Below are positions 9,478-26,246 of a DNA stretch of 64,000 nt, piece by piece. Both the position numbers and the translations under genes were made by a program. Position 1 is the stretch's first letter. Every line of letters starts with the position of its first letter. The notes under the pieces were generated by a model that saw only the letters and a list, made by a program, of their open reading frames with translations, did no database searches and was not told the origin of the DNA. The stretch spans positions 1 to 64,000 of the forward strand of contig JAFRXY010000025.1 of NCBI GenBank assembly GCA_017441385.1. Direction: 5' to 3'. This DNA comes from Clostridia bacterium (lineage in GTDB: Bacteria > Bacillota > Clostridia > Oscillospirales > Acutalibacteraceae).

Positions 9478-10500
9478 ATGGAAGTGAGTTTCCCGAAGCT
9501 GGGACTTGAATTTGAAATCAACCGCGTGGCGTTCACGCTGTTCGGAATGGATATCTACTGGTATGCCGTGCTGATTATGACAGGCTTTATTCTTGCCGTT
9601 CTATACGCGTGGAAAAGCACAAAGACCTTCGACGTGAAGTTTGATCCCCTGATAGACATCGTGCTTGTGGGACTTTTCTGCGGTATTGCCGGCGCGAGAA
9701 TCTATTATGTCATATTCCGTCTGAACAGCTACAACAGCCTGTGGGATATGATCAATATCCGTGACGGAGGTCTTGCCATTTACGGCGGAGTGATTATGGC
9801 ATTCCTTTCCGGTCTGATCATGTGCAGATATATCGAAAAGGTTGAAATTCTCCCTGTTTTTGACATTGCCGCCGTCGGGTTCCTCATCGGTCAGTGTATA
9901 GGCCGCTGGGGGAATTTCATGAATCAGGAGGCATTCGGCAGTGAAACGAGCCTTCCATGGGGTATGTATAGCGCTCATACCTATTATTACAATACGGTGG
10001 ACGGCGTTTCACAGAAAGTCGGCCCCACCACGGTACACCCGTGTTTTCTGTATGAATCACTATGGTGTCTTACAGGATTTCTGCTGCTGCATTTCATCAG
10101 CAGGAGGTATTATAAATTCAAGGGGCAGATGTTCCTGAGTTATCTGGTCTGGTACGGTCTTGGCAGAGCGTGGATAGAAGGTCTCAGAACCGACAGCCTG
10201 TGGCTTGTGGAAGATGTGATCAAGGTGTCTCAGCTTCTGGCGATCGTCTGCGTGCTGGCAGCGGGAGCGCTTCTTTTCATGGGCTGGAATGACATTCCCG
10301 TCAGGCTTCCGAGAATCAGACGTGCCCAAAACGGGAAGGGTATTGCCGGACTCGGCTTTGAGGCGGAGGTTTTCGATCTGCCTTTCCAGCCGACAAAACT
10401 ATGGCTGGTATCTCACCGGGAAGCTACCGAACCGCAGACTTCGCAGGAGACGCCCGAAACCGAAACAGAAACGGTTGAGGAGATTGTTCCGGAGGAATGA
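9478..10500 (+). CDS. lgt: Prolipoprotein diacylglyceryl transferase
   Basis: 340 residues, polytopic. It transfers diacylglycerol from phosphatidylglycerol to the lipobox cysteine, the first step of lipoprotein maturation. Signature segments: YWYAVLIMTGF, the GGLAIYGGV substrate loop, GRWGNFMNQEAFG (conserved Arg and Asn) and IEGLRTDSL (second essential Arg). A tail of about 60 residues rich in Glu/Thr/Pro after the last helix is longer than in most Lgt. It lies 4 bases after yfmH. The window encodes several lipoproteins that need this enzyme, and a second, altered copy lies at 35,114-36,916. Confidence 0.95.
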   Translation: MEVSFPKLGLEFEINRVAFTLFGMDIYWYAVLIMTGFILAVLYAWKSTKTFDVKFDPLIDIVLVGLFCGIAGARIYYVIFRLNSYNSLWDMINIRDGGLAIYGGVIMAFLSGLIMCRYIEKVEILPVFDIAAVGFLIGQCIGRWGNFMNQEAFGSETSLPWGMYSAHTYYYNTVDGVSQKVGPTTVHPCFLYESLWCLTGFLLLHFISRRYYKFKGQMFLSYLVWYGLGRAWIEGLRTDSLWLVEDVIKVSQLLAIVCVLAAGALLFMGWNDIPVRLPRIRRAQNGKGIAGLGFEAEVFDLPFQPTKLWLVSHREATEPQTSQETPETETETVEEIVPEE

Positions 10501-21914: not shown

Positions 21915-21942
21915 TTGACATTATTACTGTATGTGGTATAAT
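21915..21942 (+). promoter_or_regulatory. Promoter of the radical SAM/lipoprotein operon
   Basis: TTGACA (21915-21920), a 16-base spacer, TATAAT (21937-21942), leaving a leader of about 105 bases before the glycosyltransferase. No other promoter of comparable quality was seen before 26,353, so one transcript could cover all five genes. Confidence 0.8.
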
Positions 21943-22054: not shown

Positions 22055-23008
22055 ATGAATATTCATGTTATCGGCACGGTAAACGGCGAGGTCAACGAGG
22101 GTATGAGAAATATCGCTACTCACATTTCCCACGCCTTTGAGAAAGAACACACTGTCATCTATTCCGGATTGAGACAGCTTCCCAAGATTATCTTTGACTC
22201 GAAGAAAGCGGACGTTACCCTGATCTTCGCTTGGGCTGACAAGCGGATTTATGATCTGGTCAAGGCTGTTTCCACCATCTGTCCCCATATCTGGGTCGTG
22301 CTGGTTCAGAAGCCTGCCGGAGAATTTCTCGCCCTTGCCCGCGAAAACCCGCTGGAATGCAGCTATCTTTACATATTCGACGATGATGTGAAGGAATTGA
22401 CTGTCGCGGAAGGTCGGGCGCTCAGAAGATTTTCCGTAGGCATCAACACCGACAAATTCCTTCCGCCCAAGGGCGTTGACACCAAGGAACTGAAAGAAAA
22501 GTACGGCTTTGATCCCGTGCAGCCCCTTGTGCTGCATGTCGGGCATTGTTCCGGCGGCAGAGGGCTGGAGGATTTTCTCTGTATCAAGGGAGCGCAGCGT
22601 CTGATCATCGCCAGCGGCATGTTCGAGGACGAACAGCTTGTCAAGAGGCTGGAAGAGGACGGCGTTACCGTTATGTCGGGCTATCTCGATAACGTCGAGG
22701 AGATTTTCCAGATGGCGGATGCTTACCTTTTCCCGACCCGCAGCACGCAGAACGTCATTTCCATTCCCCTGTCAGTCATGGAAGCGCTGGCCTGCGGGGT
22801 GCCGGTTATCGGCTACTCTTCTTTTGAAAACCTCGGAGGAATAGGCTGTGCTGACGGCGCTGTGACATTTATTGATTCCCCTGACGAAATAGACAGGGTT
22901 CTTCCCTCTGTCATGGCGAAGAAATCCCGGACTTCCATGCTTCACAGCGTCGGTTCATGGAGCGACACTGCCGCCGAAATACTGAGAATCATTTCCGAAG
23001 AAGGTTAA
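22055..23008 (+). CDS. GT-B type glycosyltransferase (group 1-like)
   Basis: 317 residues. The C-terminal half fits a GT4-type nucleotide-sugar domain: LVLHVGHCSGGRGLEDFL (acceptor/donor hinge start), GVTVMSGYLDNVEEIFQMADAYLFP, and IPLSVMEALACGVPVIGYSS, the family signature before the donor-binding loop. The N-terminal half is short for the family and has no signal peptide, so it should be a cytoplasmic enzyme that adds a sugar to an acceptor. Acceptor and sugar are unknown. GGAGG sits 10 bases before the ATG, and it is only 4 bases from the first small lipoprotein gene. Confidence 0.75.
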   Translation: MNIHVIGTVNGEVNEGMRNIATHISHAFEKEHTVIYSGLRQLPKIIFDSKKADVTLIFAWADKRIYDLVKAVSTICPHIWVVLVQKPAGEFLALARENPLECSYLYIFDDDVKELTVAEGRALRRFSVGINTDKFLPPKGVDTKELKEKYGFDPVQPLVLHVGHCSGGRGLEDFLCIKGAQRLIIASGMFEDEQLVKRLEEDGVTVMSGYLDNVEEIFQMADAYLFPTRSTQNVISIPLSVMEALACGVPVIGYSSFENLGGIGCADGAVTFIDSPDEIDRVLPSVMAKKSRTSMLHSVGSWSDTAAEILRIISEEG

Positions 23009-23012
23009 GACG

Positions 23013-23264
23013 ATGAAAAAGAGTAAAATGTTGGCGGCGGCCATGGCTTCGATCGCGTTGACCGGCTCGCTTGGTTCGTGCGCCTTCAATGCCTGCGAGA
23101 ATGTGGAACCGGACGTATACGGCCCGCCGCAGCCCTATGAAGACCCGGTGGAGGAGCCGGAATCGGCCGAAGAGCCAGCACCGTCGGGGGAATATGACCC
23201 CATATATAACATGCAGCCCGGAGTGTACGGCCCGCCCGAAACAATGGAAGGCACGAAAGGGTAA
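23013..23264 (+). CDS. Small lipoprotein with two VYGPP motifs (putative radical SAM substrate)
   Basis: 83 residues. Lipoprotein signal peptide with lipobox LGSC (Cys23), then an acidic, Pro-rich mature part with a second Cys (28) and VYGPP at 35-39 and again at 71-75. Its first 23 residues are nearly the same as those of the next gene (MKKSxxLAAAMASxxLTGxLxSC). Small lipoproteins with YG-P motifs next to a radical SAM/SPASM gene are known as the rSAM/lipoprotein arrangement, whose product is undescribed as far as I know. Modification of the Tyr in VYGPP is my inference. Confidence 0.75.
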   Translation: MKKSKMLAAAMASIALTGSLGSCAFNACENVEPDVYGPPQPYEDPVEEPESAEEPAPSGEYDPIYNMQPGVYGPPETMEGTKG

Positions 23265-23325
23265 GGGAACATCCGGAGATCGTAAATGCACTTGGCATTC
23301 ACTGAATTAAGGAGGACGATAGAAT

Positions 23326-23559
23326 ATGAAAAAAAGCAGAATACTTGCAGCCGCCATGGCTTCGGTCATGCTGACCGGAGCGCTTGCATCATGCGGCCAA
23401 GATGAGGAATTCGAATCTGAAAACAACACAAATGTATGCGTATACGGCCCACCGCCCGCATACAGTGATGACAGGGAAGACAATACCGCTGACGGACGGG
23501 AATTTTTCGAGACAAGTTCGGCGGATGAAGCGCAGGCAGACGCTTCACAGGGTGACTGA
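23326..23559 (+). CDS. Small lipoprotein with one VYGPP motif (putative radical SAM substrate)
   Basis: 77 residues, a sibling of the preceding gene. Lipobox LASC at Cys23, a second Cys at 38, and VYGPPP at 39-44. The mature part is acidic (DDREDN, SSADEAQADAS) and has little other structure. AAGGAGGACG precedes the ATG. It ends 2 bases before the radical SAM gene, the tightest spacing in the operon, supporting a functional link. The twin leaders with diverged tails look like tandem duplication followed by divergence. Confidence 0.75.
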   Translation: MKKSRILAAAMASVMLTGALASCGQDEEFESENNTNVCVYGPPPAYSDDREDNTADGREFFETSSADEAQADASQGD

Positions 23560-23561
23560 AC

Positions 23562-24638
23562 ATGAACCCTATTGAAGTTAAAACCCGTCACATGCGGCAG
23601 CTGGCCGCCTACCGGAAGGGTATTCTTGCTTCCCCTCCGCTGAAGAATCTCTTTCTGGAACTGACCCTGCGCTGCAATGAGCGGTGCATTCACTGCGGCA
23701 GCCGGTGCGGCGAGCACGACGATGTGCCGGAGCTTTCGCCTGAACAGTACCGGAAGATTCTCGACGATGTGAAACGCGACTTCGGCACCGCGCAGGTTGA
23801 ACTGGATATTACAGGCGGTGAACCGCTGCTGCGGAAGGATTTCTACGACATCATGGGCTACGCCCATAAGCTGGGATTCCGCTGGGGAATGACCAGCAAT
23901 GCTACGCTCATCGACGATACCGCCGCGCACAGGCTCTACGAAGGCGGGATGAAGACCATTTCGGTGAGCATTGACGGTCTGGAACAGACACACGACAGCC
24001 TTCGCGGCATGAAGGGGGCTTTTTCCCGCGCCATGAAGGGCGTCAATGCCCTGATCCGTCACGGCGGCTTTCAGCATATCCAGATCACGACGGTGGTCAA
24101 TCACCGGAATTTTCCCGAATTGCCGGAGTTATTTGCTGTTCTTCGGGATATTGATATTGACTCATGGCGGGTCATCAATATCGAGCCGATCGGCAGGGCG
24201 CTGGATACCCCCGATCTCATGCTGACCGGGGACGAATACCGGCGCCTGTTCGACTTCATCCGGGAGAAGCGCATGGAAGGCTATCCCCTGACCTACGGGT
24301 GCAGCCATTTTCTCGGCGCGGAATATGAACGGCAGGTGCGCGACTGGTATTTTTTGTGCAATGCGGGCATTTACACTGCGAGTATCGCTTCCAACGGGGA
24401 CATTCTCGCCTGTCTGGACATCGAGCGGCGTCCGGAACTGGTGCAGGGCAATATCCTGCGTGACAGCCTGAAGGAAGTCTGGGAGCGGGAATTCAAAATC
24501 TTCCGTCACGATCTCAGCGACCTCAGCGAAACCTGCCGCGCCTGCGACCAATGCGAATTCTGCCACGGCGGAGCGCATCACAGCTGGGACTACGATCGCA
24601 ACCGGCAGCGGGTGTGCTTCAAGGATATATTATTCTGA
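23562..24638 (+). CDS. Radical SAM/SPASM-domain enzyme
   Basis: 358 residues. The [4Fe-4S] SAM motif CX3CX2C is C38-NER-C42-IH-C45, followed by the DITGGEPLLRKDF loop (GGE, SAM binding) and SVSIDGLEQTHDSLRG. The C-terminal region is a SPASM-type domain: FLCNAG, SNGDILACLD, and a Cys cluster CRACDQCEFCHGGAHH for auxiliary Fe-S clusters, with a last Cys near the end. Such enzymes commonly modify ribosomal peptides. It sits directly after two small VYGPP lipoproteins and before a flippase. The reaction is unknown; a crosslink or other change at the VYGPP tyrosine is a hypothesis. Confidence 0.9.
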   Translation: MNPIEVKTRHMRQLAAYRKGILASPPLKNLFLELTLRCNERCIHCGSRCGEHDDVPELSPEQYRKILDDVKRDFGTAQVELDITGGEPLLRKDFYDIMGYAHKLGFRWGMTSNATLIDDTAAHRLYEGGMKTISVSIDGLEQTHDSLRGMKGAFSRAMKGVNALIRHGGFQHIQITTVVNHRNFPELPELFAVLRDIDIDSWRVINIEPIGRALDTPDLMLTGDEYRRLFDFIREKRMEGYPLTYGCSHFLGAEYERQVRDWYFLCNAGIYTASIASNGDILACLDIERRPELVQGNILRDSLKEVWEREFKIFRHDLSDLSETCRACDQCEFCHGGAHHSWDYDRNRQRVCFKDILF

Positions 24639-24659
24639 CACAGAAAAGGAGACAACACT

Positions 24660-26246
24660 TTGAGAGGAGAAAAACTCTTTAAAAACACGGTGGTAGGCGT
24701 GCTTTCGCAGGGCATGGCCGCTTTGACCGGCGCTGTGGTGCATCTCTTCTTTATCAAGTACATGATAAAGGAATATCTCGGCGCCAAAACCCTCTTTTCC
24801 AATATACTGGATTTTCTGTCGCTGGCGGAGCTTGGCATCGGTCTGGTGCTGGTCTACAGCATGTATCAGCCCCTTGCCGAAAAGAACGAGCGCAAGCTGA
24901 TTGCCCTCACCCGGTTTTACCGTAAGGCCTACAACCTGATCGCCGCGATGGTCTTTTGCTCCGGGCTTTGTCTGATGCCCTTCCTTTCCTTTTTCATCAA
25001 CAACATGGAGGATGTTCCGCACGCGCATCTGATCTTCTTTCTGTATCTGGTCAGCTCGGCGTCGTCCTACCTCTTTGTGTATAAGCAATCCATTCTCAAC
25101 GCCGACCAGCGGATCTATATCACCCATCTGTTCAGCATGGCGTTTTCCGTCATTCAATGTGTGCTACAGATCGCGGTGCTGGTCAGCGGCAGCAGGTACC
25201 GGTTTTTTTATTACCTCATCGTGCAGACGGTGCTTGTCGTATTCAAGAATTTCCTGCTCACCCGGAAGGCGGAAAGGCTGTATCCCTTCCTGAAAAGCAA
25301 AGAGAAAATCCTGCTCACCAAGGACGAGAAAAAGGCCATCTACAAGAACGTCTTCGCCATGTTCAATCACCGGGTAGGCGCGGTGGTGCTTGGTTCCACC
25401 GACAATCTGCTGATTTCAAAATTCATCGGCATTGTCTACTGCGGATTCTACGGCAATTTCAAGATGATCGTCAACCTGATGACCGCCTTCATCAGCCAGT
25501 TCTTCAACGCCATGCTGTCCAGCATCGGCAATATGAATGCGCTGGAATCGAAGGAAACGGTCTATAAGACCTTCAAATACCTGCATTTTCTCAGCTTCTG
25601 GCTGTATACCTTCTCCACCGTAGCCTTTATCGAGCTGGCCAATCCCGTTCTGATGAAGGTACTCACTCTCATGGGCGTGGAGGACGTGCAGGCCTACGGC
25701 TTCACCTATCCCACTATCCTCATGATCGGACTGAACTTTTATGTCATCGGCATCCGCAAGGTGCCGCTTACCTTCAAGGAGGCTATGGGACTGCTGTGGT
25801 ATGACCGCTACAAACCCATCGTGGAGGCGGTCATCAATGTCGTGGTTTCCATTGCCGCCATACAAAGCATGGGCATTGCCGGCATTTTCTTCGGCACGAT
25901 ATTCAGCATGGTAGCCACCTCGCTCTGGGTGGAACCGCTGGTGCTCTTCCGTCACGGGCTGAAACGCTCCATGAAGGAATTCTGGGGGAAGGAATGCGTC
26001 TACATCGCCTTTTCAGGCGGCATGATCGCCCTCACCCATTATGCTGACCTTAAGCTGGTGGACGAAGCCCTCCGGCTTACCGGATGGCCTGAAATTCTAG
26101 TCAAGCTGGGCGTCTGCCTTGTTCTTCCCAACGCGCTGACTGCCCTCTGCTTCTTCTGGATGAAGGATTTCCGTGAGCTGTTCGGAGCGATCGGACACAT
26201 CGTCTTCAAAAAGAGCAGGCCAGTTCCCGTTGAAGCCGCGGAATAA
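24660..26246 (+). CDS. Polysaccharide-type flippase (Wzx/MATE-like), multipass
   Basis: 528 residues with about 12-14 hydrophobic segments in the layout of Wzx-like lipid-linked oligosaccharide flippases: LLVYKQ-type SYLFVYKQSILNADQRIYI in the middle of the first half, FAMFNHRVGAVVLGSTDNLLISKFIG opening the second. TTG start with AAAAGGAGA upstream. As last gene of the operon, it could move a glycolipid or glycosylated lipid precursor to the outer face, which fits the glycosyltransferase at the operon start. Substrate unknown. Confidence 0.85.
   Translation: MRGEKLFKNTVVGVLSQGMAALTGAVVHLFFIKYMIKEYLGAKTLFSNILDFLSLAELGIGLVLVYSMYQPLAEKNERKLIALTRFYRKAYNLIAAMVFCSGLCLMPFLSFFINNMEDVPHAHLIFFLYLVSSASSYLFVYKQSILNADQRIYITHLFSMAFSVIQCVLQIAVLVSGSRYRFFYYLIVQTVLVVFKNFLLTRKAERLYPFLKSKEKILLTKDEKKAIYKNVFAMFNHRVGAVVLGSTDNLLISKFIGIVYCGFYGNFKMIVNLMTAFISQFFNAMLSSIGNMNALESKETVYKTFKYLHFLSFWLYTFSTVAFIELANPVLMKVLTLMGVEDVQAYGFTYPTILMIGLNFYVIGIRKVPLTFKEAMGLLWYDRYKPIVEAVINVVVSIAAIQSMGIAGIFFGTIFSMVATSLWVEPLVLFRHGLKRSMKEFWGKECVYIAFSGGMIALTHYADLKLVDEALRLTGWPEILVKLGVCLVLPNALTALCFFWMKDFRELFGAIGHIVFKKSRPVPVEAAE

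Follow-up and report, generated by a model that had tools for sequence, protein, structure and literature searches.

The question raised by this locus is whether five closely spaced genes of a rumen bacterium form one conserved pathway, or whether a smaller unit lies within them and what that unit might do. In the window (the whole stretch of 64,000 nucleotides that was analysed), five co-directional ORFs occupy positions 22055-26246 of the + strand, with aro/tyr genes upstream of the run and secA downstream. A sequence-only reading had described a promoter followed by five closely spaced genes, the small lipoproteins lying 2-4 or about 60 bases from their neighbours, and this observation is real: all the ORFs are present, with gaps of 4, 61, 2 and 21 bases in gene order, behind a sigma-70 promoter.

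21915..21942, + strand: sigma-70 promoter, TTGACA-16-TATAAT with TG before the -10 (12/12 consensus, best in the region)
22055..23008, + strand: group-1 (GT4-like) glycosyltransferase (Pfam PF13692, 1e-9; PF00534), a lineage-specific neighbour outside the conserved module
23013..23264, + strand: lipoprotein 1, 83 aa, lipobox LGSC, two motif copies (orthologues aligned)
23085..23129, + strand: extended motif copy 1, in lipoprotein 1, F-N-A-C-E-N-V-E-P-D-V-Y-G-P-P, with F(-11), N(-6) and VYGPP
23193..23237, + strand: extended motif copy 2, in lipoprotein 1, Y-D-P-I-Y-N-M-Q-P-G-V-Y-G-P-P, a full match to the family consensus
23326..23559, + strand: lipoprotein 2, 77 aa, lipobox LASC, one motif (orthologues aligned)
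23410..23454, + strand: extended motif copy 3, in lipoprotein 2, F-E-S-E-N-N-T-N-V-C-V-Y-G-P-P
23562..24638, + strand: radical SAM/SPASM enzyme, TIGR04133-like (279 bits; PF04055, PF13186; AlphaFold pLDDT 92.7), the proposed motif modifier
24660..26246, + strand: MOP-superfamily flippase (Wzx/MurJ-like, from fold search), TTG start, a genus gene outside the conserved module

Co-transcription of the glycosyltransferase, the lipoproteins, the enzyme and the flippase is likely in this subclade. Judged by gene neighbourhoods in related genomes, the conserved machine is nevertheless smaller than the five genes, and consists of the radical SAM/SPASM enzyme and one or more YGPP-bearing proteins.

The relationship of the enzyme to the rSAM/lipoprotein family, which had been suggested from its surroundings, is borne out by its top NCBIfam model, TIGR04133 (rSAM_w_lipo, 279.2 bits, E 4e-83), the next model reaching 150 bits. 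The score lies below the cut-off of 425 bits, which is passed in none of the 291 genomes of the class (best score 385.6), and from these comparisons the window enzyme is a member of a clostridial sister group of TIGR04133, that is, a sister variant and not a member by the curated definition. Pfam matches to Radical_SAM (PF04055) and SPASM (PF13186) were found, and both cysteine groups noted earlier are present, the CX3CX2C motif as C38, C42 and C45 and the SPASM-region cysteines as C247, C266, C284, C325, C328, C334 and C352, each being conserved in 100-101 of 101 relatives. The nearest folds of the AlphaFold model are those of SkfB (6efn), SuiB (5v1s), anSME (4k39) and CteB, and CteB (5wgg) is also the best solved relative by sequence. 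The enzyme has no RRE: the model places only a helix of about 24 residues ahead of the radical SAM core, and the Pfam search gave no match to one. No relatives were found in the viral contigs scanned.

The neighbourhood comparison, chosen beforehand as the one that could overturn the proposed link between enzyme and lipoproteins, came out in favour of that link. It covered 80 loci from a scan with one genome per species, nearly all from Lachnospiraceae and Oscillospiraceae of the rumen or gut. In 71 of them a YGPP-coding sequence lies no more than 3 kb from the enzyme, and the number rises to 73 if the YGSP of a zinc-ribbon protein (L043 and L104) is also accepted. Near the enzyme, 212 motifs lie on its strand and 2 on the opposite one, and the density falls from 214 in 426 kb (within 3 kb) to 1 in 534 kb beyond that distance, counts which include related sequences and are inflated, not independent events. 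The motif gene mostly stands directly upstream of the enzyme and the remaining neighbours vary, in a table built with a greedy ORF picker that includes false opposite-strand ORFs. Seven loci (L080, L084, L091, L096, L108, L112 and L115) show no recognisable motif nearby; their substrates are possibly encoded in trans, or a different substrate is possibly used.

A gene for a cation-diffusion-facilitator-like transporter adjoins the enzyme in L084, L091, L105 and L112, three of these four being without a YGPP gene. Furthermore, the contig of L056 is filed as Alistipes (Bacteroidota), its enzyme and lipoprotein grouping with those of Lachnospiraceae, which may reflect mis-binning.

The sequence-only reading had gone beyond enzyme and lipoproteins, taking the five genes as one pathway: the glycosyltransferase would build a glycan, the flippase would move it, and the modified lipoproteins would bear it or be displayed along with it. 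The close packing of the genes into a single operon behind one promoter agrees with this proposal, as does part of a survey of 18 genomes of the genus: an enzyme of at least 81% identity occurs in 10 of them, the full glycosyltransferase in exactly those 10 (with a fragment in G492), and the flippase follows the enzyme in nine of the 10. Across the 80 loci, however, homologues of either gene near the enzyme were limited to the seven loci that are closest to the window, the other 73 having none, and the genus survey separates the genes as well. None of the three genomes with an enzyme of about 69% (G486, G496 and G500) has the glycosyltransferase; in G486 and G496 the lipoprotein and the enzyme have neither gene beside them, the flippase being on another contig, and G494 and G497 (98 and 94% complete) contain the flippase, present in 16 of the 18 genomes, and lack the lipoprotein-type enzyme. 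Two ABC-transporter genes adjoin the only flippase copy of G498, an arrangement shared with G494 and G492. Moreover, a lone glycosyltransferase is thin for a glycan route, and no further glycosyltransferase, polymerase or ligase accompanies the flippase in the window. The locus neighbourhoods and the genus survey rule out both genes as conserved parts, and by the same gene distributions the five do not constitute a single conserved pathway; the glycan proposal is, in our estimation, improbable. Judging from its distribution, the glycosyltransferase belongs to one subclade of the genus only, and the flippase is a genus gene found alone elsewhere; a local functional tie to the glycosyltransferase is possible within the subclade.

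The earlier naming of the last gene as a Wzx-like flippase agrees with its MOP fold: the AlphaFold model (pLDDT 81.6) matches MATE, MurJ and WzxE (Foldseek probability 1.00, TM up to 0.71 to MurJ). There is no Pfam match above cut-off, and the curated Wzx model NF041503 gives 20.8 bits against the 300 required. More distant homologues stand beside unrelated genes or in an apparent polysaccharide cluster, and secA, considered as the ancestral neighbour of the flippase, was found not to be so.

Turning to the motif itself, the three VYGPP segments of the window's lipoproteins are the sole matches to the DNA pattern GTNTAYGGNCCNCC in the 2.66 Mb genome, and scanning that genome for N-x4-[VI]-Y-G-x-P returned nothing beyond the same three copies. 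In the alignment of lipoprotein orthologues the motifs are kept while the linkers have diverged, so they are not due to chance. The conserved segment is longer than VYGPP, and can be written as [FY]-x-[PA]-x2-N-x4-Y-G-P-P, the consensus of 212 aligned instances being [FY](-11)-D-P-x-x-N(-6)-x-x-x-V(-1)-Y-G-P-P-E-x-F. Among the 211 YGPP instances with enough upstream sequence, F or Y is found at -11 in 149, N at -6 in 151 and both in 116, N(-6) being missing from 60. In 29 instances YGPP stands two residues behind the lipid Cys, and positions -11 to -3 fall inside the signal peptide. The idea that such lipobox-adjacent motifs lack N(-6) proved wrong, the residue sitting in the signal peptide: within it, F(-11) is present in 23/29 and N(-6) in 25/29, and N occupies the equivalent place in none of 40 control lipoproteins. 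The signal peptide of lipoproteins is cut just before the Cys, so an enzyme reading positions -11 to -3 would have to act before cleavage. A thioether was rejected as the general rule, as the motif has no constant Cys (C(-2) in 54/212).

The motif is found in different settings, namely protein linkers, the cleavage site of lipoprotein signal peptides, the region between zinc ribbons and short signal-less peptides, and the range of partners includes the tail of a prolipoprotein diacylglyceryl transferase (Lgt), lipoproteins of 100-250 aa and zinc-ribbon proteins. Up to seven copies occur per protein, and several motif genes are in tandem. In the carriers examined, Tyr and Gly are always present and Pro stands at +2 or +3, the exception being the ORF at 2976-3362 of L030, with Y-A-P-P. 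Three short signal-less ORFs, in L079 (54 aa), L098 (62 aa) and L061 (63 aa), have F(-11), N(-6) and YGPP. Zinc-ribbon partners carry, between their two ribbons, [FY]-x-P-Y-[QD]-[NQE]-x-M-x-x-I-Y-G, in which F/Y(-11), P(-9) and Y-G are retained and N(-6) is changed to Q or E in some; in L043 the segment is F-R-P-H-E-N-F-T-P-C-V-Y-G-S-P. These partners occupy two separate and well-supported positions in the enzyme tree, of which one is inside the starred 12-member clade containing the window, and according to the tree they arose at least twice, a count that rests on its starred branches. The window's own genome has one lipoprotein-type and one zinc-ribbon-type enzyme, the latter of 48% identity and overlapped by a zinc-ribbon gene with MQCIYGPRP, whose product contains FAPYQQIMQCIYGPRP.

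G000:C102:103877-105339 (L033 10878-12337): second enzyme of the window's genome, overlapping the zinc-ribbon gene

The carrier changes and the enzyme and motif stay together, and this is the strongest reason for considering the motif a substrate site. The earlier proposal that the lipoproteins are substrates modified at VYGPP is upheld as far as the linkage to YGPP is concerned, and has to be amended in two respects: proteins other than lipoproteins also occur as partners, and the motif extends beyond VYGPP.

Several observations on individual carriers may be added. The majority of the 18 genus genomes contain matches to the zinc-ribbon-type enzyme. The zinc-ribbon partner at L030:2976-3362, on the same stretch as L009, reads IECIYAPP, with Ala for Gly, and neighbours another zinc-ribbon ORF with QCIYGPPPVW, a tandem of degenerate and intact motif. 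In L079 and L098, a lepA-like gene lies directly upstream of the short signal-less YGPP ORF and the enzyme. An Lgt (PF01790) at L087:6503-7552, whose gene is immediately followed by those of a YGPP lipoprotein and the enzyme, ends in a C-terminal tail NPTVYGPPEMM, whose VYGPP is without F(-11) and N(-6); the window's own Lgt (9478-10500), in a similar M16-M16-lgt-folD neighbourhood, is without such a tail. Lipoproteins of about 230-255 aa are encoded downstream of the enzyme in L046, L047 and L052; they have YGPP and YG[AV]P close to the N-terminus and, behind these, a conserved domain (WYKLT..YAVLRVLSVP) that matches no Pfam family.

The reading that we prefer, with a probability of about 0.78, is that of a two-part cassette, in which the enzyme would recognise and modify a motif of some 15 residues in proteins encoded beside it, before their export; the motif is probably the site that the enzyme both reads and modifies. 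Thus, a cytoplasmic radical SAM/SPASM enzyme would recognise [FY]-x-[PA]-x-x-N-x-x-x-[VIA]-Y-G-x-P in freshly synthesised proteins and alter that segment, most likely at its Tyr-Gly-(Pro)-Pro end, with Tyr as the presumed site. In the window the targets would be two prolipoproteins with three motif copies in total, modification would precede Sec export, lipidation and signal-peptide removal, and the outcome would be a cell surface with lipoproteins bearing modified YGPP segments. In relatives, the same reaction would take place on zinc-ribbon proteins and short signal-less peptides, so that the motif, and not the lipoprotein, would define the substrate. Its chemistry is most likely a radical-made bond or other change at Tyr-Gly-x-Pro, a Tyr-centred crosslink being our guess. 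The full set of SPASM cysteines and a fold like that of the peptide-modifying SkfB, SuiB, anSME and CteB support the substrate reading.

Gene linkage alone cannot separate a substrate from a partner protein, and the YGPP proteins could also be carriers, docking partners or electron-transfer helpers of an enzyme that in reality acts on some other molecule. The shortness and exposure of the motif would suit such a role, as would the seven loci in which the enzyme stands without it. The presence of up to seven copies per protein, the tandem genes and the transfer of the motif between unrelated proteins nevertheless fit a repeated modification site better, and export of a lipoprotein takes the partner away from a cytosolic enzyme; a helper role is in our view a slightly poorer prospect than even the glycan proposal.

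RiPP precursors are the usual targets of SPASM enzymes, and the small lipoproteins might be seen as ordinary precursors of an excised, secreted modified peptide, acting as a signal or bacteriocin, a notion to which the short signal-less partner ORFs of 54-63 aa lend some colour. RRE/PqqD-type leader binding, a peptidase and an exporter were looked for and not found in the window system, however, and the genes around the 80 enzymes differ from locus to locus, with no peptidase, peptide transporter or immunity gene conserved among them. The partners, moreover, include the Lgt tail, the larger lipoproteins and the zinc-ribbon proteins, and we consider a RiPP the least probable of the explanations weighed here. 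CteB and SkfB (thioether), SuiB (Lys-Trp) and PqqE resemble the window enzyme in fold and cluster ligands; unlike them, the window system has no RRE and no leader-core precursor, its product apparently remains a protein, and its targets have no conserved Cys, which excludes a general thioether.

A closer parallel to the cassette reading is offered by anSME, which shares the fold (4k39) and modifies, in the cytosol, a short motif (C/S-x-P-x-R in sulfatases) of a full-size, often exported protein. By analogy, the window enzyme is proposed to work in the same way on a short motif of full-size, often exported proteins, although its motif and targets differ. As regards the maturases of Aro-x-x or 3-residue cyclophanes, for which Aro-Xaa-Asn and Aro-Xaa-Xaa-Asn motifs have been described (PMC9062424), the aromatic residue followed by a short fixed spacing is similar and would suit a Tyr-centred C-C or C-O link, but here +2 is P, S or V and +3 is P, R or M, with no Asn at either position.

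The nearest named system is TIGR04133/TIGR04134 (lipo_with_rSAM), in which the gene next to that of a radical SAM/SPASM enzyme likewise codes for a small lipoprotein, with Y-G-P-P soon after the lipid Cys. In the window, too, a Y-G-x-P lipoprotein is encoded beside the enzyme, but TIGR04134 (cut-off 39.8 bits) is matched neither by the two lipoproteins nor by any protein of the genome; the lipoproteins have no carboxypeptidase-regulatory-like domain, their motif is repeated, and in relatives zinc ribbons or short peptides take its place. A more distant enzyme, in L015 (G407; 386 bits to TIGR04133), adjoins a lipoprotein that passes TIGR04134 (52.3 bits), with G-C-G-M-Y-G-P-P, in which Y-G-P-P follows closely on the lipid Cys, and with the carboxypeptidase-regulatory-like domain.

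A literature search on the TIGR04133 and TIGR04134 names and on YGPP found no paper naming or describing this named system. The present comparison defines a precise recognition motif of 15 residues for it, supplies minimal peptides for tests and natural substrates 54-84 residues long, and predicts the order of events, which makes the reaction directly testable; if confirmed, the modification of surface proteins would be widespread in rumen clostridia. It is somewhat better than an even bet that this family of gut clostridial radical SAM enzymes installs one modification on the 15-residue motif wherever it is present, be it in lipoprotein linkers, the lipobox itself, zinc-ribbon proteins, short signal-less peptides or perhaps the Lgt tail. 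In that event the enzymes would be dedicated to modifying proteins, with separate paralogues for separate targets in one cell, and would not belong to a natural-product pathway; where the motif straddles the cleavage site of signal peptidase II, modification would have to come before the cut and could control it.

Finally, a radical SAM/SPASM protein of 43% identity, with an extra C-terminal part of about 200 residues, is encoded at L031:9407-11002. Near this type lie ORFs of 60-67 aa ending in CYYGCPNSKKA... (L032:3086-3268), and the two together resemble a true RiPP pair with another Y-G-x-P segment.
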